Shown here piece by piece: positions 5,543 through 56,379 of a stretch of 64,000 nt of DNA. Source of the DNA: Halofilum ochraceum. GTDB taxonomy: Bacteria; Pseudomonadota; Gammaproteobacteria; XJ16; Halofilaceae. The position numbers and the translations under genes were made by a program. The stretch spans positions 496,001-560,000 of the forward strand of contig NZ_LVEG02000001.1 in NCBI RefSeq assembly GCF_001614315.2, in the 5' to 3' direction. The stretch's first letter is position 1; each line of letters opens with the position of its first letter. The notes under the pieces are model-generated. The model was not told the origin of the DNA, searched no databases, and saw nothing but the letters and a program-made list of their open reading frames with translations.

Positions 5543-5695
5543 ATGAACAGCACCCCACTTTCGCCCGGCCGAAAAATCGGCCGCGCGCATGCCATCGCCG
5601 CCGATGATCCATTGTTGCTGACTTGCCAGATGGCACGGGGCACGACATTTCGCGTGGGCGAATACGCGCTCGCGCGATTGGAGGGCGGACGATGA
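5543..5695 (+). CDS. Small ORF coupled to the primase/helicase-like gene
   Basis: A 50-codon frame starting at ATG 5543, with GGAG at 5530-5533, and ending in an ATGA overlap with the start of the large downstream gene at 5692. The product begins MNSTPLSPGRKIG and contains a Leu/Val-rich centre (PLLLTCQMARGTTFRVGEYA), possibly a small strand-rich fold. Tight coupling to a replication-like gene suggests a small regulatory or accessory protein, as is common in integrative elements. No family is recognised; the overlap and ribosome-binding site are the evidence that it is real. Confidence 0.5.
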   Translation: MNSTPLSPGRKIGRAHAIAADDPLLLTCQMARGTTFRVGEYALARLEGGR

Positions 5696-8484
5696 GTGCG
5701 GTCCATCTTCCTATCGACCTGTACGACGACACCGCCGTGGCGGATGGCGACGCGGGCAACGGGGCCGCGACAGCATATCCTGCCACCCTGTCCGTGCTGT
5801 CCGCTGCAAAACCAAAACGTCTGGCCAAGCAATTCGCCCTCGACAGTAACGGCGAACTGATCAAACGGCCCGGCGGCGAACTCGTGCGAGGCCACTACGA
5901 ACGCCGCGCGGTGGATGGCGTCGACGGCTTGCGCGAAACACTGGCAAGCCTGCAACCGAATCAAGCGCTTTGCTTCGGAGCCGCTGCCCCGGAATCCTCG
6001 CCGATTGCGTCACGTCAGGCGGCGGGCGAGGGCGACATCACCCGCACGCGCGACTGTTTCGACTGGCCCGTCGGTCCCGGCTTCCTCTTGCTGGACTACG
6101 ATCCGCCACCGGGCGGCGAGCCGATGAACCCGAGCACGCTGTACGCCAGGGTTAAGGGCGCGTGTCTCCCCGTCGCCGACGCGCCAATGGTAGCGGCGGC
6201 CAGTAGTTCGACGTATATCTACAACGGCGATACGGACGAGTGCATGAAGGGCGCGGGCGGGCTTCGCTTGTGGATCCATGTCGCCGATGCGCGGGACATC
6301 CCAAGAGCCGGGCAAGTGCTGTTCGATCGGCTATGGCTGGCCGGGCACGGGTACTACGCGGTGAGCAAGTCTGGTGCGTTACTCGAACGCGGGTTGGTTG
6401 ACGCCGCAGTGTGGCAACCCGAACGCCTCGACTTTGCCGCAGGGGCATCGTGCGTCGCACCGCTCGAACAACGCCGCGCGGAACCACTGGTGGTGAACGC
6501 TGACGCCAATCCTCTGGACACGACCACGGCGCTGCCCGACCTGACCGACGCCGAGCGTGAGCGCCTGGCCGAGCTAAAGGCGGAAGCGCGCGAAGCGGTC
6601 TCCGGCGAACAACACGCCGCGCGGCAAGCGTGGATCGATGACCGGCTCGCCGCGTTCGAGGAAAGCGCCGCCGATGATCTGGCCGCGCTGGACGACAACG
6701 GACGCGAACAGCGGATCGAACAGGCGCGGCAATCGTTCGTCGCGGCTGTCATGAATCGCAAGCTATTCGCCGACTTCACGCTGACGCATAGCAGTGGCCG
6801 CACCGTCACCGTCGGCGCGATTCTGGACAAACCCGAACAGTGGCACGGCGAACGCTTCGCCGACCCGCTCGAACCGGATTACGGCAACGATGCCCGGATT
6901 GCCTGGGCGAACCTTCGCAGCGGCGGAAAGCCGTATATCTACAGCCACGCGCACGGCGGACAACGGTTTGCGCTGGAGCGTGCCGCATCCACGATCTGCA
7001 TCGCTGCCGGTGAGATGCCGCGCATGGTCCAACAGGCCGACGAACTTATGCGCCACGCGGGCGAGGTGTATCAGCGCGAGGGTAGGCTGGTGCGGCTTGT
7101 TGATGGCGGCGTGTTTCCCGTATTCGGCCCTTGGCTGTCCAACCACCTGGAGTCCATCGCGCAATGGTTGCGCTTCGACAAACGGGCGAAGGATTGGCTG
7201 GCGAGCGATGCACCCGGCAACCTGCCCGCACGCATCCTGCACAACCGAGGCGCATGGACCGTTCCCGAGCTGTCCAGCGTCGTGCCCGCTCCGCTGCTGC
7301 GTCGGGATGGCTCCATGCTGGATAATCCCGGATACGATCCGGGAACCGGCGTGCTGTTGCTCGCCGACCACCCCGACGGCTGGCCGCCCGTACCGCACAA
7401 CCCCAGCCGTGAACAGGTACGCGCCGCTCTGCGAACGTTGTGGGAGCCGTTCGAGCATTTCCCGTTCGTGGACGCGCTATCGCGCAGCATCGCACTGGCG
7501 GCGTGCCTGACCGCCGTACAGCGACCCATGATCGGGACTGCGCCCGCATTCGCCGCCAACAGCTACAAGGCGGGCACCGGAAAAGGAAAGCTGGCGAAGG
7601 CTGTTGCGTGGCTGTCCGGGCACGAGCCGAGCGAATCGCCCTGGAGTACTGAATCCGAAGAACAGCGCAAACGGATCATGGCCAAGCTCATGACCGCGCC
7701 GCCGTCGCTGTTGATCGACAATGTAAACGGCCCGCTCGAATCGGATACGTTGTGCGCGGTGCTCACGTCCACGACGTATGAAGATCGCCGCCTCGGCGCA
7801 TCCGAGAACGTGAGCGTCCCCACGCGCGTACTCATTCAGGCCACCGGCAACAATATCCAGGTGACGGGCGACCTTGCCCGCCGTGTGCTGGTGAGCACGA
7901 TTGATCACGGCGTGGAATCCCCCGAGCGCCTTGCGTTTCCCTTCGATCCCGTTGCGCGTGTGCGCGAACGCTGGCTGCACTACCGGGCGGCGGCGCTGAC
8001 AATTCTGCGCGGATTCGTGGCCGCAGGTTGCCCGCAGGGGGCCCCCGGTTGCATGGGATCGTTTGAGGAATGGGATGCCGTTATCCGTCAATGCGTCGTG
8101 TGGCTTCGCGATAAACGGTTGGCTGACTTCAACCTTGCCGATCCGGCGGATGCCGTGGACGCGAACTACGCCGACGAGCCGGAGACGATCAAGCTGCGCG
8201 GCCTGATCACCGGGTGGGATGGCGTGATCGGTGATCGACCCGTCAAACTCCGCGAGTTGGTGGACGAAGCGCAACCTGCGGCCAATATCGGAGCGCCCAG
8301 CGAGTACCGTGCAACCCTCGCTAATGCCCTGGACGAGATCGCAGGCGAGCGGGGGACGATCAACCCGCGTCGGCTTGGCCGCTGGATCGGACGCTATGCC
8401 GGGTGCGTCGTGGACGGACGGCGAATCGTCAAGGATGGCGTGAGTGCGGGTGACACCCGCTGGCGCACGGAGGCTGCGCGATGA
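5692..8484 (+). CDS. Primase/helicase-like replication protein of the element
   Basis: A 930-residue protein; ATG at 5692 with GGAGGG about 7 bases upstream. Residues 130-240 carry an archaeo-eukaryotic primase-like pattern: LLLDYD with D135 and D137, then LWIHVAD with H196, then LVDAAV with D237. A charged Ala/Glu/Arg-rich coiled-coil-like linker follows (282-352). The C-terminal half has a P-loop, AGTGKGKL, at about 627-634 and SLLIDN (D676) as a Walker B-like strand; the usual second acidic residue is Asn. This order fits prim-pol plus helicase proteins that replicate satellites and integrative elements. Domain identity is inferred from motifs. It is sandwiched by 4-base overlaps with small ORFs on both sides. 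Confidence 0.65.
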   Translation: MSAVHLPIDLYDDTAVADGDAGNGAATAYPATLSVLSAAKPKRLAKQFALDSNGELIKRPGGELVRGHYERRAVDGVDGLRETLASLQPNQALCFGAAAPESSPIASRQAAGEGDITRTRDCFDWPVGPGFLLLDYDPPPGGEPMNPSTLYARVKGACLPVADAPMVAAASSSTYIYNGDTDECMKGAGGLRLWIHVADARDIPRAGQVLFDRLWLAGHGYYAVSKSGALLERGLVDAAVWQPERLDFAAGASCVAPLEQRRAEPLVVNADANPLDTTTALPDLTDAERERLAELKAEAREAVSGEQHAARQAWIDDRLAAFEESAADDLAALDDNGREQRIEQARQSFVAAVMNRKLFADFTLTHSSGRTVTVGAILDKPEQWHGERFADPLEPDYGNDARIAWANLRSGGKPYIYSHAHGGQRFALERAASTICIAAGEMPRMVQQADELMRHAGEVYQREGRLVRLVDGGVFPVFGPWLSNHLESIAQWLRFDKRAKDWLASDAPGNLPARILHNRGAWTVPELSSVVPAPLLRRDGSMLDNPGYDPGTGVLLLADHPDGWPPVPHNPSREQVRAALRTLWEPFEHFPFVDALSRSIALAACLTAVQRPMIGTAPAFAANSYKAGTGKGKLAKAVAWLSGHEPSESPWSTESEEQRKRIMAKLMTAPPSLLIDNVNGPLESDTLCAVLTSTTYEDRRLGASENVSVPTRVLIQATGNNIQVTGDLARRVLVSTIDHGVESPERLAFPFDPVARVRERWLHYRAAALTILRGFVAAGCPQGAPGCMGSFEEWDAVIRQCVVWLRDKRLADFNLADPADAVDANYADEPETIKLRGLITGWDGVIGDRPVKLRELVDEAQPAANIGAPSEYRATLANALDEIAGERGTINPRRLGRWIGRYAGCVVDGRRIVKDGVSAGDTRWRTEAAR

Positions 8485-30096: not shown

Positions 30097-30176
30097 GATC
30101 GCAAGCAAGCTCGCTCCTACATGAATTCTGCCACGCGGGCGGGGACTCCCTTGTAGGAGCGAGCTTGCTCGCGATT
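30097..30176. repeat. Inverted REP-like pair
   Basis: Two copies of a GTAGGAGCGAGCTTGCTCGC-type palindromic word face each other: inverted at 30097-30120 and direct at 30151-30176, separated by about 30 bases. The same word recurs near 63.9 kb. It resembles the dispersed REP elements of Pseudomonas and related gammaproteobacteria. The surrounding gene-free bases (29934-30267) hold no gene. Confidence 0.85.
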
Positions 30177-48821: not shown

Positions 48822-49472
48822 GTGAATCAGGGGAAGAAAACGGATGCCGAGTCGCTTGGACTCATTCCCGACACGACGGCGGGGGTGGCAAGCCGGGATC
48901 TTGAAAAATACGTTGGTGCCGAGATCCGTCGGCATCGGCGCCGCGCGGATCTGACGATCGTTGCCCTGGCGCAGCGGGCCGGCCTCTCGCAGGGCATGAT
49001 GTCCAAGATCGAGAATGGCCAGACTTCACCCTCACTGAGTACGCTCAGCGCGTTGGCCGATGCCCTGGGCACGCCTTTGTCGGCGCTGTTCGCGCCGCTC
49101 GATACGAGTCGGGATGTCTCCTTTGTCCCGGCCGGTACCGGTCTCGAGATCGACCGCCGTGGCACCAAATCCGGCCACCTCTATGAGCTGCTGGGTCATG
49201 GCGTACGCAACGTGGTGGGGGTGGAGCCCTACAGGATCACGCTCTCGGAGGGATCCGAACCCTTCGGCGATTTCCAGCACGAAGGCGTCGAGTTCATCTA
49301 CATGCTGGAAGGCCGCCTGATTTACCGCCACGGCGAGCGGACATTCCCCATGGGGCCTGGCGATGCCCTGTTCTTCGACTCGATTGCCCCGCACGGTCCG
49401 ATCGAACTCGTGGAAGTACCCTGTCGCTATCTCTCGGTAATTACATATTCCCGGGATGAAAATGCAGGGTAG
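48822..49472 (+). CDS. XRE-type helix-turn-helix regulator with cupin domain
   Basis: A 216-residue regulator beginning at GTG 48822. Residues about 33-90 form an XRE helix-turn-helix (LTIVALAQRAGLSQGMMSKI then ENGQTSPSLSTLSALADAL). Residues about 135-210 form a C-terminal cupin (FQHEGVEFIYMLEGRLIYRH, then GERTFPMGPGDALFFDSIAP). Such proteins control catabolic or polyamine/amine genes in response to small ligands. It precedes the transporter-glutamate-synthase-GlnA operon across a long leader, making it the natural candidate regulator of that operon. Confidence 0.88.
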   Translation: MNQGKKTDAESLGLIPDTTAGVASRDLEKYVGAEIRRHRRRADLTIVALAQRAGLSQGMMSKIENGQTSPSLSTLSALADALGTPLSALFAPLDTSRDVSFVPAGTGLEIDRRGTKSGHLYELLGHGVRNVVGVEPYRITLSEGSEPFGDFQHEGVEFIYMLEGRLIYRHGERTFPMGPGDALFFDSIAPHGPIELVEVPCRYLSVITYSRDENAG

Positions 49473-50235
49473 ATTTTCAATATAACTGAAAATCGCGTGT
49501 TTTCGGCGATGATCGAGGCCGTTCCCGCCTATAGTGAATCCATGTCCAGGTATCTACGGGTCGCCTCGGTTACATGGCGCACCAACAATTTCCCTCTATG
49601 CAATAAATATTCTTTAAGGTAAATTCGCGACCAGGATGCGTTCCGGTCGCGTGTGATCGGGACGTGGCGCTGAGGGAGCCCGACATGGTGCGGGTCGCTT
49701 CTGAGCCATACCGAAAGCCGATTCCGCTCGAATGTGCCGCCGGGCGGGCAGACCTCGCCCGGCTGCACCGGGATCGGGCTGTCGCCACCGTGAGGCCGGT
49801 CGACCGGTCGGGGAGCGGTTGCGGACTGGTATGCCCTCTCGTCCGACCGCCAGAGTTGCGGTCCCCATCGCGTCGATCCCGTTCCCAAGTCCGGGTAACG
49901 GTCGGCGAGCACACCCCGGATCCGTCAGTCCCCTGCCTCGGCTTCCACCGCGCCACATTGAACCACGCGGACTTCCGTCCGCGTGGCAGCGACGCGTGCG
50001 GTTCCCGGAAGCCGACCGATCTGGCGTTTCCGGCGCCGGCCACCGTCGCGGATCCCATGATCCGCGTGGCGGTCCGGCCGGTCTCTCGCTTACGGGCCAC
50101 AAGTCCCGTGTGGCAATCCCTGAGAATGAACCCGATCCGGTCCCGTAGCGGTTGCACGGAGGCGTATGGCGAGTGCCATCCGGCCCGCGTTCGACGGCTG
50201 CGGGTGTTGGAAATCCCATAACAAGGGGGGTACCA
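49473..50235 (+). other. Long gene-free leader of the transporter operon
   Basis: About 760 bases with no convincing gene; frames on both strands are shadows of composition. It contains several strong inverted repeats, described separately. The Shine-Dalgarno AAGGGGGG sits just before the transporter ATG. No sigma-54 promoter with correct GG-N10-GC spacing was found. Confidence 0.5.
49938..50066 (+). ncRNA. Candidate structured RNA element upstream of the transporter gene
   Basis: TCGGCTTCC at 49938-49946 pairs with GGAAGCCGA at 50007-50015. Immediately inside, ACCGC (49947-49951) pairs with GCGGT (49998-50002). At the centre CCACGCGGAC / GTCCGCGTGG (49963-49986) makes a 10-bp stem with a TTCC loop. 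A second perfect hairpin, CGCGGATC-CCAT-GATCCGCG, follows at 50047-50066, flanked by a 4-bp ACCG/CGGT pair. Nesting of independent stems suggests an RNA or a protein-binding DNA structure. Its identity is unknown; it matches no riboswitch I recognise. Confidence 0.4.
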
Positions 50236-51651
50236 ATGGATACACAAATCGATGCGATCATCACGATCTTCACCGAGTTTTATTACTGGGTGACGGTCGT
50301 GATGATGTTCCTCATCCATGCCGGCCTGCTCGCGTACGAGGTAGGTGCCACAAGACGCAAGAACATCAGTCAGACCATTAACCGGCACATTATGGTGCTC
50401 GCCCTCGTCACATTGACCTGGTTCCTGTTTTCCTGGTGGATCTACTGGGCCTTCAACGCCGGACCGGGCTTTTTCGGACCGGTGATCACCAGCGAAGCGG
50501 CGATGGCGGCATTGCCGTGGTCCGAGAACATGGGCCCACATCTGCAGGACAACATCTCCGGGGTCTTCTGGGCCGCTTTCCTGCTGTTCTCATGGACCGC
50601 CGCGGCGATCGTATCGGGCGTGGCCATCGAGCGCGTGCGGACCGGGGCATTCCTCGTCATCGGCGTCCTGGTTGGCTCCGTGACCTGGGTCATCGACGCC
50701 TCCTGGGGCTGGCATGCCGAGGGCTGGATGGTCCAGCTCATGGGCTACCATGACGCTTATGCCTCCGGGGTGATCCATGCCATCGCCGGCGGTGCCTGCC
50801 TCGCCCTGACGATCGTACTGGGCCCACGCATCGGCAAGTTCGACCAGGAGGGGCGTCCGCGGGATATCCCGCCGCATAACGCATGGATGGCCTGCTTCGG
50901 ACTGGTGATCATCTACGCGGGCTTCTGGGGCTTCTACGCCGCCTGCAACATTCCGATCATCAATATCGGCTCCGAGGAAGAGCTGCGCATGGGTGCGACC
51001 AACATCTATCTGATGCCCACCACCCTGTCGTCGCTGACCTTCAACTTCCTGATGTCGCTGACCGGCGGCCTGATGGCCGGCTATTTCGTCTCCAAAGGCG
51101 ACCCGTACTGGACGCTGTCCTGCGGTCTTGCGGGCATTATCGGCGCCTCGGCCGGAAACGATCTGTATCACCCCATCCAGGCCCTGTTCGTCGGCGCCGC
51201 GATCGCGGCGGTGATCTACAAGCTGCACTTCTGGGTGGAGAACCGGTTCAAGATCGATGATCCGGTTGGCGCCTGTGCCGTCCACGGTTATGCGGGTTTC
51301 ATCGGTGTCGTCGTGGCCGGTTTCCTGCTCTGGGGTTACCCGGCAGCGGCTCCGATCGATCTCTCGAACTGGTGGGTCAGCAGCCATGGCTGGTTCGGTA
51401 CGACGCCGGATGGTTCCCCGGCGGTGAACCCGATCGGCAACTTCCTCGGGGCCATCATCATGTTCGGCGTGCTCGGCTTCCTGCCGACGTACGTGGTGGC
51501 GAAGCTGTTCCAGGCGAAGGGCATACTGCGTGAACCGCGCGAGGTCGAGCTTGCGGGTGCCGACACCTACGAGAACCTCGATGTCTATCCGAATTTCGCC
51601 TGGGCCGAGAGCGAATTCGACAAGGTCGAAATTGACTACGCCAAAGACTGA
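50236..51651 (+). CDS. Ammonium/methylammonium transporter, Amt family
   Basis: A 471-residue polytopic protein with about 11-12 hydrophobic segments. The twin-histidine positions of Amt channels are recognisable: GVIHAIAGGACLAL and CAVHGYAGFIGV. It is divergent from AmtB in several pore stretches (for example SWWIYWAFNAGPGFF and DASWGWHAEGW) and has no signal peptide-like start. Its place as first gene of an operon with N-methylglutamate synthase-type genes suggests it imports methylammonium or ammonium. No GlnK/PII gene is adjacent. ATG 50236 has a strong AAGGGGGG upstream; earlier frame extension is not supported. Confidence 0.85.
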   Translation: MDTQIDAIITIFTEFYYWVTVVMMFLIHAGLLAYEVGATRRKNISQTINRHIMVLALVTLTWFLFSWWIYWAFNAGPGFFGPVITSEAAMAALPWSENMGPHLQDNISGVFWAAFLLFSWTAAAIVSGVAIERVRTGAFLVIGVLVGSVTWVIDASWGWHAEGWMVQLMGYHDAYASGVIHAIAGGACLALTIVLGPRIGKFDQEGRPRDIPPHNAWMACFGLVIIYAGFWGFYAACNIPIINIGSEEELRMGATNIYLMPTTLSSLTFNFLMSLTGGLMAGYFVSKGDPYWTLSCGLAGIIGASAGNDLYHPIQALFVGAAIAAVIYKLHFWVENRFKIDDPVGACAVHGYAGFIGVVVAGFLLWGYPAAAPIDLSNWWVSSHGWFGTTPDGSPAVNPIGNFLGAIIMFGVLGFLPTYVVAKLFQAKGILREPREVELAGADTYENLDVYPNFAWAESEFDKVEIDYAKD

Positions 51652-51668: not shown

Positions 51669-51950
51669 ATGTCCACAGGTATCAGTTCGTGGTCCAACCC
51701 GGCTGAAATCACGGCCATCTACCCCTTTCCGGGAACGGAATGGCTGCTTGTGATCGCCGGATTCGTCTTCTGGATCTGGTGGCACGTCAAACAGATCCGG
51801 GAGGAAAACCGGGCCCTGGAAGAGGCCGCCGAATACCATCGGCGGCATGGCGTCCGCAAGACGATGGAGGAGAACGTGGCTCGGAGCGTATCGGACGCGC
51901 CGGCCGGTTCTCATTCCAGCGCCAGCGGCGTGAATCCGGTCGAAGAGTAG
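51669..51950 (+). CDS. Small single-pass membrane protein of the transporter operon
   Basis: A 93-residue protein with a strong ribosome-binding site (GAGGAGG) 17 bases after the transporter stop. It has a hydrophobic segment at about 24-38 (WLLVIAGFVFWIWWHV), then a charged helix (KQIREENRALEEAAEYHRRH) and an acidic, serine-rich tail. It may be a subunit or assembly partner of the transporter; no family is recognised. Confidence 0.7.
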   Translation: MSTGISSWSNPAEITAIYPFPGTEWLLVIAGFVFWIWWHVKQIREENRALEEAAEYHRRHGVRKTMEENVARSVSDAPAGSHSSASGVNPVEE

Positions 51951-51964
51951 GATGGATCGTCCTC

Positions 51965-51998
51965 GTCCGGGTTGGCGGCACGAGCCGCCGGCCCGGAC
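51965..51998 (+). other. Strong intergenic hairpin between transporter and amidotransferase genes
   Basis: GTCCGGG / CCCGGAC (51965-51971 / 51992-51998) with GGCGGC / GCCGCC inside and an ACGA loop. No T-run follows, so it is better read as an attenuation or mRNA-stabilising stem than a terminator. A further 8-bp pair, TGAAGCAG 52018-52025 with CTGCTTCA 52066-52073, lies downstream. Confidence 0.55.
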
Positions 51999-52112
51999 GG
52001 GCGTCGGTTGTGAATGCTGAAGCAGGAATTCCCGGTAGGAAAAATATCTTCATGGAGGTAAACTTCTGCTTCATGTAGGCTTGGCCGCCACGACCGGAGG
52101 AGGCGACGCGCG

Positions 52113-53012
52113 ATGTGCGGAATTGTCGGCCTGTATCTGAAGAACCCTGAACTGGAGCCGCGGCTTGGAGAACTGTTCTGTCCGATGCTCGCGGAGATGA
52201 CCGAGCGTGGACCGGACAGCGCCGGGATCGCGATCTACCGCGATGATGGGCAGTACACGAGCAAGATGACGGTTTACAGCAGTGATCCCGATTTCGACTG
52301 GGATGGACTCGCGGCCGAGGTCGGCCGGGATCTCGGTACCCCGGTCACGGCCGACCGGGTTTCGACCCACGCGATCCTGCGCTCGGATGCGTCTACGCGT
52401 GACCTGCGTGCATGGCTGCAGGACCACTATCCGAACATCCGGGCGATGAGCGCAGGCGGTGCGCTCGAGATCTACAAGGAGGTGGGGTTGCCGGTTGATG
52501 TCATGGAGCAATTCGGGATCGGGGCGATGAACGGCACTCACGCGATTGGTCATACCCGCATGGCCACCGAAAGTGCCGTGACCACCGAGGGCGCGCACCC
52601 GTTCAACACCGGCGATGATCTGTGCCTTGTCCACAATGGTTCGCTCTCCAATCACCACCGGCTGCGGGAATGGCTTCGGCGCCATGCCGGCATGACCTTC
52701 CAGACGGAAAACGACAGCGAGGTCGCCGCCGCGTACCTGACCTGGCGGCTGCGCGAGGGCGATTCCCTGTCGCAGGCGCTGGAAGCGGGCCTGAAGGATC
52801 TGGATGGTTTCTATACGTTCGCGGTCGGTACGCGCGAGGGCTTCTCCGTCGTGCGCGACCCGATCGCCTGCAAGCACGCGATCATGGCGGAGACCGATGA
52901 CTGGGTCGCGATCGCGACCGAGTATCGCGCGCTGGCGCGGCTCCCCGGGGTCGATGCGGCCCGGGTCTGGGAGCCGAAACCCGCCACCGTCTACAGCTGG
53001 GGGAGGGCATGA
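52113..53012 (+). CDS. Class II glutamine amidotransferase subunit, GlxB/N-methylglutamate synthase A-like
   Basis: A 299-residue Ntn-type amidotransferase beginning MCGIVGLY, with Cys2 the expected catalytic nucleophile. Other conserved parts are ERGPDSAGIAI, GHTRMATESAVTTEGAHPF, VHNGSLSNHH and FQTENDSEVAA. It releases ammonia from glutamine, or the methylamide equivalent, and feeds the synthase subunits. In NADPH glutamate synthase this domain is fused to GltB; here the modules are separate genes, as in GlxBCD of Sinorhizobium and MgsABC of methylotrophs. Its stop overlaps the next start (ATGA). Confidence 0.85.
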   Translation: MCGIVGLYLKNPELEPRLGELFCPMLAEMTERGPDSAGIAIYRDDGQYTSKMTVYSSDPDFDWDGLAAEVGRDLGTPVTADRVSTHAILRSDASTRDLRAWLQDHYPNIRAMSAGGALEIYKEVGLPVDVMEQFGIGAMNGTHAIGHTRMATESAVTTEGAHPFNTGDDLCLVHNGSLSNHHRLREWLRRHAGMTFQTENDSEVAAAYLTWRLREGDSLSQALEAGLKDLDGFYTFAVGTREGFSVVRDPIACKHAIMAETDDWVAIATEYRALARLPGVDAARVWEPKPATVYSWGRA

Positions 53013-53701
53013 GCATGAATACGCTCGACCTGGAACGCATGGCGGTGCGTGACGTCAATCAGCGGCTCCATGACGACGCCGCCGGCACCAATACGGATCA
53101 GCAGTACGAAATCCTCAATCCGATGGGCCGGCACGCGATCGCTGTCGGCCTCAATCATCCCTTCGACGTCACGGTTCGCGGTCATGCCGGGTACTACTGC
53201 GGCTCCATGAACAAGGAAGCGACCGTGACGATCGAGGGCAATGCCGGTGTCGGCGTAGCCGAGAACATCATGTCCGGCACGGTGCATGTTACCGGCTATG
53301 CCAGTCAGTCGGCGGCGGCGACCGGCCATGGCGGTCTCGTCGTGATCGACGGCGATGCCAGTGCCCGCTGCGGTATCTCGATGAAGGGCGTGGATATCGT
53401 GGTCGGCGGATCCGTCGGTCACATGTCCGCTTTCATGGCGCAGTCCGGCAACCTGGTCGTCTGCGGCGACGCCGGTGAATCGTTTGGCGACTCGATCTAC
53501 GAGGCTCAGCTGTTCGTTCGCGGGAGTGTGGAAAGTCTGGGCGCCGACTGTGTCGAGAAAGAGATGCGGCCGGAGCACGTCGAACGGGTGCGGGGTCTGC
53601 TCGAACGGGCCGGTATCGATGCCGATCCGGCGGCGTTCCGGCGCTACGGCTCCGCGCGCCAGCTCTACAATTTCAAGATCGGCAACATTGGCTACTACTG
53701 A
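53009..53701 (+). CDS. GXGXG-domain subunit of split glutamate synthase (MgsB/GlxC-like)
   Basis: A 230-residue right-handed beta-helix protein. Repeated Gly-rich rungs are visible: VRGHAGYYCGSM, IEGNAGVGVAENIMSG, IDGDASARCGISMKG, VGGSVGHMSAFMAQ and VCGDAGESFGDSIYE. It corresponds to the C-terminal GXGXG domain of GltB. Start ATG 53009 overlaps the amidotransferase stop by 4 bases. It is structural and links the amidotransferase and FMN subunits. Confidence 0.85.
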   Translation: MSMNTLDLERMAVRDVNQRLHDDAAGTNTDQQYEILNPMGRHAIAVGLNHPFDVTVRGHAGYYCGSMNKEATVTIEGNAGVGVAENIMSGTVHVTGYASQSAAATGHGGLVVIDGDASARCGISMKGVDIVVGGSVGHMSAFMAQSGNLVVCGDAGESFGDSIYEAQLFVRGSVESLGADCVEKEMRPEHVERVRGLLERAGIDADPAAFRRYGSARQLYNFKIGNIGYY

Positions 53702-53714
53702 GGGGGAACACCCG

Positions 53715-55025
53715 ATGGACGAACGAAAGGTACGCGAATCCGCCACCTTCCCCCCGCATGTCATCGCCGAGATCCAGCGGGCCGCATCGGAAGGTCTCTA
53801 TTACATCCGTGGCTCCGGCGCCAAGCGCGCGGTGCCGACGTTCGATGATCTGGTGTTCCTTGGTGCGTCGATCTCGCGTTACCCGCTCGAAGGCTATCGC
53901 GAGAAATGCGATACCAACGTCACGATCGGTACCCGGTATGCGAAGAAGCCGATCGAACTGAAGATACCGATCACGATCGCCGGCATGAGTTTCGGGGCTT
54001 TGGGCGCCAATGCCAAGCAGGCGCTTGGACACGGTGCCAGCGCCATGGGCACGAGTACCACCACCGGCGACGGCGGCATGACCGAGGAGGAGCGGGAGGC
54101 GTCGAGCCTCCTCGTGTACCAGTACCTGCCGTCACGCTACGGCATGGAACCGGATCAACTGCGCAAGGCGGACGCAATCGAGGTGGTCGCCGGCCAGGGT
54201 GCGAAGCCGGGTGGCGGCGGCATGCTGCTCGGTCAGAAGATTACTGACCGGGTGGCGCAGATGCGGACGCTGCCCAAGGGCATCGACCAGCGTTCCGCCT
54301 GCCGCCATCCGGACTGGACGGGTCCGGACGACCTCGAGATCAAGATCCAGGAACTGCGCGAAATCACCGATTGGGAGAAGCCGATCTACGTCAAGGTCGG
54401 CGCGACCCGCACCAAATTCGACACCATGCTCGCGGTCAAGGCCGGTGCGGACGCCATTGTCATCGATGGTATGCAGGGCGGCACCGCCGCGACACAGACC
54501 TGTTTTATCGAGGATGTGGGGATCCCGACGCTGCCGGCCGTGCGCCAGGCGGTAGAGGCGCTCAAGGAACTCGACATGCATCGCGAGGTGCAGTTGATCG
54601 TCTCCGGCGGTATCCGCACGGGCGGTGATGTGGCCAAGGCGCTCGCGCTCGGCGCGGATGCCGTATCGATCGGCATGGCCTCGCTGATGGCACTCAACTG
54701 TAATGCGCCGATCTACGAGGAGGATTATCACGCGCTCGGGACGCGGCCCGGTTCCTGTCACCACTGTCATACCGGCAAATGCCCGGTCGGCATCACCACG
54801 CAGGATCCCGAACTGGAAAAACGTCTGGATCCTGAACTCGGTGCACAGCGTGTGCGGAATTATCTGGCCACGCTGACTCTTGAATGCCAGACGCTGGCGC
54901 GGGCGTGCGGAAAATCCCACGTACACAACCTCGAACCGGAAGACATGGTGGCCTTGACCATGGAGGCGGCCGCAATGGCCCGCGTCCCCCTGGCCGGTAC
55001 CGACTGGATCCCTGGCTGGAGCTGA
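53715..55025 (+). CDS. FMN- and Fe-S-binding glutamate synthase-type subunit (MgsC/GlxD-like)
   Basis: A 436-residue protein corresponding to the FMN-binding synthase domain of GltB: ITIAGMSFGALGANAKQALG, AGQGAKPGGGGML, VKVGATRTKFDTMLAVKAGA, IVIDGMQGGTAATQ and VSGGIRTGGDVAKALALGA. Cysteines for the [3Fe-4S] cluster lie in CHHCHTGKCPVGI at about 350-362. It makes glutamate, or N-methylglutamate when the amide donor is methylated, with ferredoxin- or flavin-type electrons. It follows the GXGXG gene by 13 bases. Confidence 0.87.
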   Translation: MDERKVRESATFPPHVIAEIQRAASEGLYYIRGSGAKRAVPTFDDLVFLGASISRYPLEGYREKCDTNVTIGTRYAKKPIELKIPITIAGMSFGALGANAKQALGHGASAMGTSTTTGDGGMTEEEREASSLLVYQYLPSRYGMEPDQLRKADAIEVVAGQGAKPGGGGMLLGQKITDRVAQMRTLPKGIDQRSACRHPDWTGPDDLEIKIQELREITDWEKPIYVKVGATRTKFDTMLAVKAGADAIVIDGMQGGTAATQTCFIEDVGIPTLPAVRQAVEALKELDMHREVQLIVSGGIRTGGDVAKALALGADAVSIGMASLMALNCNAPIYEEDYHALGTRPGSCHHCHTGKCPVGITTQDPELEKRLDPELGAQRVRNYLATLTLECQTLARACGKSHVHNLEPEDMVALTMEAAAMARVPLAGTDWIPGWS

Positions 55026-55071
55026 TCCGGCCGATCCGCGCAAATCCGAGCAACGCCACCCGGGAGGCATA

Positions 55072-56379
55072 ATGACAAGCAAGCTCGCAGCATTCGCAAA
55101 AGAACGGGATATCAAGTACTTCCTGTTCAACTTCACGGATCTACGCGGCGTCCAGCGCTCCAAGCTGGTACCGGCCGCCGCGGCCGCCGGTATGGAAGAG
55201 GATGGCGCCGGTTTCGCCGGCTTCGCGACGTACCTCGATCTGAGCCCGGCCGACCCGGACATGTTCGCGGTACCGGATCCCGATACCGCCATCCAGTTGC
55301 CGTGGAAACCGGAAGTCGCGTGGGTGGCCGGTGATCTGTGGATGGACGGCCAGCCGATCGAGCAGGCGCCACGGCGGGTTCTCAAGCGGATGATCGAGAG
55401 GGCGAACGCCGAGGGATTCCATCCAAAGTCGGGTGTCGAGGCGGAGTTCCATCTGATCAGCCAGGATGGCAGCGAGATCCATGATTCACTCGATACAGCC
55501 GAGAAGCCCTGTTACGACCAGTCGGCGGTCATGCGTCGCTACGACGTCATCTCCGAGATCTGCGATGCGATGCTCCATCTTGGCTGGGAGCCGTACCAGA
55601 ACGATCATGAGGATTCGAACGGCCAGTTCGAGATGAACTGGGGATTCGATGATTGCCTCGTGACCGCGGATCGCCACGCCTTCTTCAAATTCATGGTCCG
55701 ATCGATCGCCGAAAAACACGGGATGCGGGCGACGTTCATGCCAAAGCCGTTCATGCACCTGACGGGCAATGGCTGCCACGTGCATCTGTCGCTCTGGAAC
55801 AAGAGCGGCAGTGCGAACATGCTCGATGATAGCAGTGATGAACTCGGGCTCTCCGAGAAGGCCTATCACTTCATGGGCGGCGTCCTGCATCACGCGCAGG
55901 CGATGTGTGCGATCACCAACCCGACCGTAAACAGTTACAAGCGCATCAATGCGCCGGTAACCGCCTCCGGCGCCACGTGGTCTCCGAATTCGGTCACCTG
56001 GGCCGGCAATAACCGCACTCACATGATCCGCATCCCGGATCCCGGGCGCTTCGAGTTCCGACAGGCCGATGGCGCCGCCAATCCGTATCTGCTTCAGGCC
56101 GTGAAGTTGGCCGCCGGCCTCGAGGGGATCGCCAATCAGCGCGAGCCCGGCAAGCGGCTTGATATCAACATGTACACGGAAGGTCATAAGGCCCGGGGCG
56201 CACGTCGGTTGCCCCTGTATCTGATCGATGCCATCCGTGCCTTCGAGCGCAACAAGGCATTGCGCGCGGCGCTGGGCGAGGACTTCAGTAAGGCCTATAT
56301 CAAAATGAAGATGCAGGAGTGGGATGACTACTCGCATCAGCTGACGGAGTGGGAGCGGCAGCACACGCTGGATTGCTGA
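55072..56379 (+). CDS. Glutamine synthetase-type ligase (GlnT/gamma-glutamylmethylamide synthetase candidate)
   Basis: A 435-residue protein of the type III glutamine synthetase-like GlnT/GmaS branch. Conserved catalytic-fold parts are SGVEAEFHLISQDG, ENDSNGQFEMN-like residues in NDHEDSNGQFEMNWGF, and TGNGCHVHLSLWN. Nucleotide- and glutamate-site residues lie in the NNRTHMIRIP and FEFRQADGAANPYL stretches. Its homologues make glutamine or, in methylotrophs, gamma-glutamylmethylamide from glutamate, methylamine and ATP. Directly following the three synthase modules, the methylamide role is the better guess; an ammonia ligase role is the alternative. A terminator follows. Confidence 0.82.
   Translation: MTSKLAAFAKERDIKYFLFNFTDLRGVQRSKLVPAAAAAGMEEDGAGFAGFATYLDLSPADPDMFAVPDPDTAIQLPWKPEVAWVAGDLWMDGQPIEQAPRRVLKRMIERANAEGFHPKSGVEAEFHLISQDGSEIHDSLDTAEKPCYDQSAVMRRYDVISEICDAMLHLGWEPYQNDHEDSNGQFEMNWGFDDCLVTADRHAFFKFMVRSIAEKHGMRATFMPKPFMHLTGNGCHVHLSLWNKSGSANMLDDSSDELGLSEKAYHFMGGVLHHAQAMCAITNPTVNSYKRINAPVTASGATWSPNSVTWAGNNRTHMIRIPDPGRFEFRQADGAANPYLLQAVKLAAGLEGIANQREPGKRLDINMYTEGHKARGARRLPLYLIDAIRAFERNKALRAALGEDFSKAYIKMKMQEWDDYSHQLTEWERQHTLDC

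Follow-up and report, generated by a model that had tools for sequence, protein, structure and literature searches.

Among bacterial operons, long and structured 5′ untranslated leaders form a general class, and the leader described here resembles its members in being non-coding, in having a conserved fold, and in lying on the same strand upstream of a metabolic operon, but differs from them in that it was found in two genomes only. A link to nitrogen genes is shared with the glutamine riboswitch and the glnA RNA motif, although in Rfam no family of this kind matched the leader, which presumably differs from both in architecture and size. The same kind of operon, gmaS-mgsABC, is controlled by TmaR which, unlike a leader, is a protein activator acting at promoters (PMC13390433). 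In that paper, regulation is attributed to protein activators and repressors, and the word "leader" is absent from its main text. Among open-licence papers searched by title, none was found that deals with a leader RNA of amt or N-methylglutamate operons.

The leader lies within a 64-kb window (the whole stretch of DNA that was analyzed), between the gene of an XRE-cupin transcriptional regulator, which is syntenic in a metagenome-assembled genome (MAG) of the same genus (G001, the source of locus L034), and an ammonium transporter family gene, amt, which is 95% identical in that MAG (Table 1). On the 5′ side of the locus are SHMT, sarcosine-oxidase-like beta, alpha, and gamma subunits, and formate-THF ligase. 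Genes downstream of amt are given mgs and gmaS names on the basis of the known pathway, and we take the cluster as a whole to represent the N-methylglutamate pathway for methylamine use. This gene naming agrees with PMC13390433, in which operons gmaS-mgsABC and mgdABCD are named. At the stop codon of the XRE-cupin gene, a perfect dyad (GATTTTCA-N7-TGAAAATC, 49472-49494), whose right half is identical in G001, represents a plausible operator for this regulator.

Table 1. Positions of the leader elements and neighboring genes within the window
Feature	Position	Strand	Details
XRE-cupin transcriptional regulator gene	48822-49472	+	Pfam HTH_31, HTH_3, Cupin_2; adjoins the 5′ side of the leader
Non-coding leader of the amt operon	49473-50235	+	Between the XRE-cupin gene stop (49472) and the amt start codon, ATG (50236)
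AT-rich stretch	49590-49625	+	35/36 identical in G001; candidate core promoter or regulator site
Conserved 5′ RNA domain	49626-49735	+	Two mutually exclusive hairpins, A and B
Nested hairpin element	49938-50015	+	Outer, inner, and central stems below
Outer stem	49938-49946/50007-50015		9 bp
Inner stem	49948-49953/49996-50001		6 bp
Central (core) stem	49963-49972/49977-49986		10 bp, 4-nt loop
Second hairpin	50047-50054/50059-50066	+	8 bp, 4-nt loop
Shine-Dalgarno-like AAGGGGGG	50223-50230	+	Ahead of the amt ATG; weak pairing with 50214-50217
Ammonium transporter family gene, amt	50236-51651	+	PF00909, 1.1e-50
Small ORF	51669-51950		3′ of amt
Intercistronic hairpin	51965-51998	+	15 bp; ahead of the mgsA-like gene
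mgsABC-like and gmaS-like genes together	52113-56379	+	
Glutamine-amidotransferase-like, formylmethanofuran-dehydrogenase-C-like, and glutamate-synthase-like ORFs	52113-55025		
Type III glutamine synthetase / gamma-glutamylmethylamide synthetase-like gene	55072-56379		gln_synth_III, 660.9 bits (cut-off 469.6)

A first-pass annotation, made from the sequence, had placed nested hairpins in a 760-base gene-free leader. The leader is 763 nt long and is indeed non-coding, even though open frames traverse it on both strands. Candidate coding frames at 49664-50221 (+), 49570-50541 (-), and 49614-50273 (-) were rejected as showing no codon-like substitution relative to G001, with 57, 45, and 62 substitutions (each of 186) at the three codon positions of 49664-50221. 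Over the full stretch the best frame score was z 1.4 vs z 3.1 for the amt control, a single minus-strand frame reaching 2.5 solely within the sub-stretch 49684-49900, and a Pfam search of the leader open frames yielded no match.

When the leader DNA was searched against 56 genomes, matches along its length were obtained only in the own genome (G000) and in G001, with a 29-nt piece in G038, while the other genome of the genus (G002) lacks both the leader and a close amt. A 29-nt match from this search is designated L003, and BLAST matches to the 5′ block in L116 and L117 consisted of 26-32 nt pieces that are unrelated judging by sequence. Between G000 and G001, 547 of 763 leader positions are identical (72%) and the distance to amt differs by one net base; MAFFT introduced one gap in 763 columns and BLAST, under other gap costs, 10 gap events, and the claim is accordingly limited to near-equal length.

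The distribution of the structured elements was assessed with covariance models of the nested element (R1) and of the 5′ domain (R2). When 80 amt loci were scanned together with the window (81 sources), both were convincing only in the window and L034; the proposed covariation search of leaders of related transporter genes provided one homologue, with no convincing one at the other 79 loci. Over 369 genomes of the class, R2 was detected in G000 and G001 only, and R1 in these two along with three weak matches judged to be chance; the own genome itself holds one convincing R1 copy and one match at E 5.8. Plasmid records gave no match. Of the weak model matches in other genomes, that in L121 falls within a pilin-like reading frame and that in L122 within reading frames that overlap, whereas L123 and L094 can be aligned only without the core hairpin; all were taken as chance. 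The window had no Rfam match at gathering scores, and at E up to 10 the leader had four, all far under gathering and none convincing. An aptamer recurring ahead of related genes across diverse species was not found in these searches, the matches being confined to one genus.

All four stems previously annotated between 49938 and 50066 were recovered in the window sequence, the inner one extending from the annotated 5 bp to 6 bp once one G-U pair is counted. The 143 nt at 49938-50080 have a folding energy of -83.3 kcal/mol (z -5.1), with none of 200 shuffles this low, and the 700 nt at 49536-50235 reach z -5.5 (0 of 20 shuffles as low). Folds of this strength are not rare in the 64 kb, where 6 of 710 tiled 143-nt segments display z values of -5 or lower, including a 27-bp inverted repeat and terminator-like hairpins, and 12 of 710 display -4 or lower; the minus strand also folds as strongly as the plus strand.

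The comparison of G000 with G001, the two sequences on which covariation is based, revealed that four pairs of the nested element are altered on both sides with pairing retained in this single homologue; the nested part of the earlier annotation, which a lack of such changes would have refuted, thus withstood this check. Among the 26 pairs of the G000 fold of 49938-50020, 23 form in G001; nine pairs changed and six of these still pair, including all four double changes, a number matched by 1 of 200 column shuffles in which the conservation pattern was kept. The structure conservation index of this region is 0.97, a value reached by 0 of 200 shuffles (null mean 0.54). For the pairs as named in advance, 25/25 form in G000 and 23/25 in G001 (48/50 cells, 96%), vs 30-44% when the partner is slid by 1-3 columns, and the corresponding shuffle control, which is weak with two rows, was matched in 37 of 500 cases. 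These compensatory changes are concentrated in the core stem, which reads CACG-CGG-AC/GT-CCG-CGTG in G000 and CACG-GCA-AC/GT-TGC-CGTG in G001, i.e., three compensatory changes from CGG/CCG to GCA/TGC. From G000 to G001, the outer stem includes a compensatory change from G-C to A-U as well as a wobble from C-G to U-G, and a G-U pair of the inner stem in G000 is G-C in G001. Both one-sided wobbles suit a plus-strand RNA, because they would be A-C mismatches in a DNA cruciform or on the minus strand. Among leader helices common to both species, the top rank goes to the core hairpin; since 10 of 60 local shuffles of the columns produce a helix with three or more double changes at some place in the leader, its weight comes from the position having been named in advance. 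With 55 of 79 positions identical in G001, next to 162 of 243 amt 4-fold sites, the nested-element region evolves at a near-neutral rate, its fold nonetheless being kept.

The structure and its compensatory conservation in one homologue are established, and conserved structure with compensatory changes, as expected of a cis-acting leader RNA, was found on these two sequences. We consider the nested element to be probably a real RNA structure, seen in two genomes so far. The second hairpin fared differently: retained double changes amount to 3 of 7, matched by 46 of 200 shuffles, and its columns have a pair probability of 0 in G001, where a different hairpin forms, so that the compensatory changes sought for this hairpin did not materialize.

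A serious rival, albeit one we consider rather unlikely overall, is that the palindromes are unselected and belong to GC-rich extragenic DNA, their two arms being rewritten in a single step when the template switches from one inverted repeat to the other; two sequences are too few to decide against such a mutational origin, which would mimic compensatory changes. The three core changes are adjacent and could represent one event, six distinct perfect stems of at least 10 bp with loops of 3-12 nt occur in the 64 kb, and the second hairpin is not retained. Stability in G001 is also modest: the 143-nt region alone has a z of -1.3 to -1.7, barely above shuffle stability, and when the full 645 nt are folded, pair probability is only 0.4 for the outer and inner stems but near 1 for the core, although with a context starting at 49900 the outer and inner stems reach about 0.95. 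However, the outer stem carries its own compensatory change and wobble, the flanks TTTCCACCGCGCCAC and GTGGCAGCGACGCG are retained around the changed core, and the structure conservation index stands far above its null mean. On balance we favor, at slightly better than even confidence, a structured plus-strand leader RNA that acts in cis and in which the nested element is under selection.

The best-conserved part of the leader, at 49593-49712, is 114/120 identical (95%) between the two species, compared with 162 of 243 four-fold sites in amt, and the presence of this conserved upstream block is likewise established. It includes the AT-rich stretch, which is the probable site of a promoter judging by its sequence, although no sigma-70 consensus was found in the leader, and none of the sigma-54 GG-N10-GC pairs that occur there forms a convincing promoter. 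The conserved block lies upstream of the hairpins, which suggests that the transcript may start 5′ of them, and no sign of a start 3′ of 50066 was seen. Beyond the AT-rich stretch, the block continues into the 5′ domain. Hairpin A (49626-49632/49645-49651) has a stability of -15.9 in G000 and -11.5 in G001, and hairpin B (49637-49649/49654-49666), which shares bases with A, of -17.3 and -20.4, respectively. Such a layout, i.e., a promoter-like AT stretch followed by 110 nt of conserved structure, with the strongest conservation more than 500 nt away from amt, could also be that of a separate trans-acting small RNA gene or of an sRNA processed from the leader. We regard this possibility as improbable: no terminator-like site (a GC hairpin followed by a T run) was found on the plus strand at 49400-50300, leaving no intrinsic terminator before amt, and the near-identical distance to amt in both species also argues against a separate gene.

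Under the favored cis-acting reading, a plus-strand transcript would start from a promoter in the AT-rich stretch and include a leader of about 600 nt, with the 5′ domain (as hairpin A or B) followed by the nested element and then by the amt ribosome site. This leader would act on an amt-mgsABC-gmaS-like operon whose genes are presumably co-transcribed, most likely through mRNA stability or processing, or through access for translation or Rho, because the plus strand is without a terminator-like site. A more specific version, which we view as a long shot, is that these roughly 600 nt form a new class of cis-regulatory RNA, with the two exclusive 5′ hairpins and the distal nested element working as a switch that, in a single gammaproteobacterial lineage, would adjust both the uptake of ammonium/methylammonium and the N-methylglutamate pathway. 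A true regulatory RNA would add an RNA layer to the control of methylamine use, whereas an element that is merely stabilizing, or an unselected palindrome, would make the finding an ordinary one.

The first-pass annotation had left the choice between a new regulatory RNA and an operator cluster, and the retained pairing speaks for RNA structure. A cluster of DNA operators bound by a regulator, for instance the XRE-cupin protein, whose gene adjoins the leader, would account for the palindromic arms and for the presence of TCCGCGTGGC twice. This operator reading is nevertheless weakened, because the core stem letters changed while pairing stayed, so that a sequence-specific palindrome is not what was kept between species; in addition, the G-U changes break the DNA palindrome and the dyad at 49472-49494 is more operator-like, making this reading very improbable. 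Least probable of all is a riboswitch that binds glutamine, methylamine, or a different signal of nitrogen or C1 status, which the location ahead of an amt-mgs-gmaS operon and the two exclusive conserved 5′ hairpins could evoke, but which is at odds with the Rfam results at gathering and relaxed scores, the lack of a visible expression platform, and the confinement to one genus.

Several other features were observed in the window. Ahead of the mgsA-like gene, a second conserved non-coding block (52036-52112) is 71/77 identical (92%) in G001. It is weakly similar to 49597-49626, with an alignment score reached in 4/500 and 5/2000 block shuffles, a likeness hinting that both places may have a promoter or regulator site in common; another place in the window outscores it, and it does not stand out against the window as a whole. 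The neighboring intercistronic hairpin is kept in G001 with one compensatory change, from C-G to U-A. Elsewhere, a GCAAGC/AAGCTCGCTCCTACA-type repeat at 30099-30174, with two facing copies, resembles known REP elements. Finally, the perfect 27-bp inverted repeat (8487-8513/8576-8602), composed of TTGGTGTG-like units and folding at z -11, is located directly 3′ of a 953-aa ORF (5623-8484) that looks like a primase/helicase judging by its reading frame.
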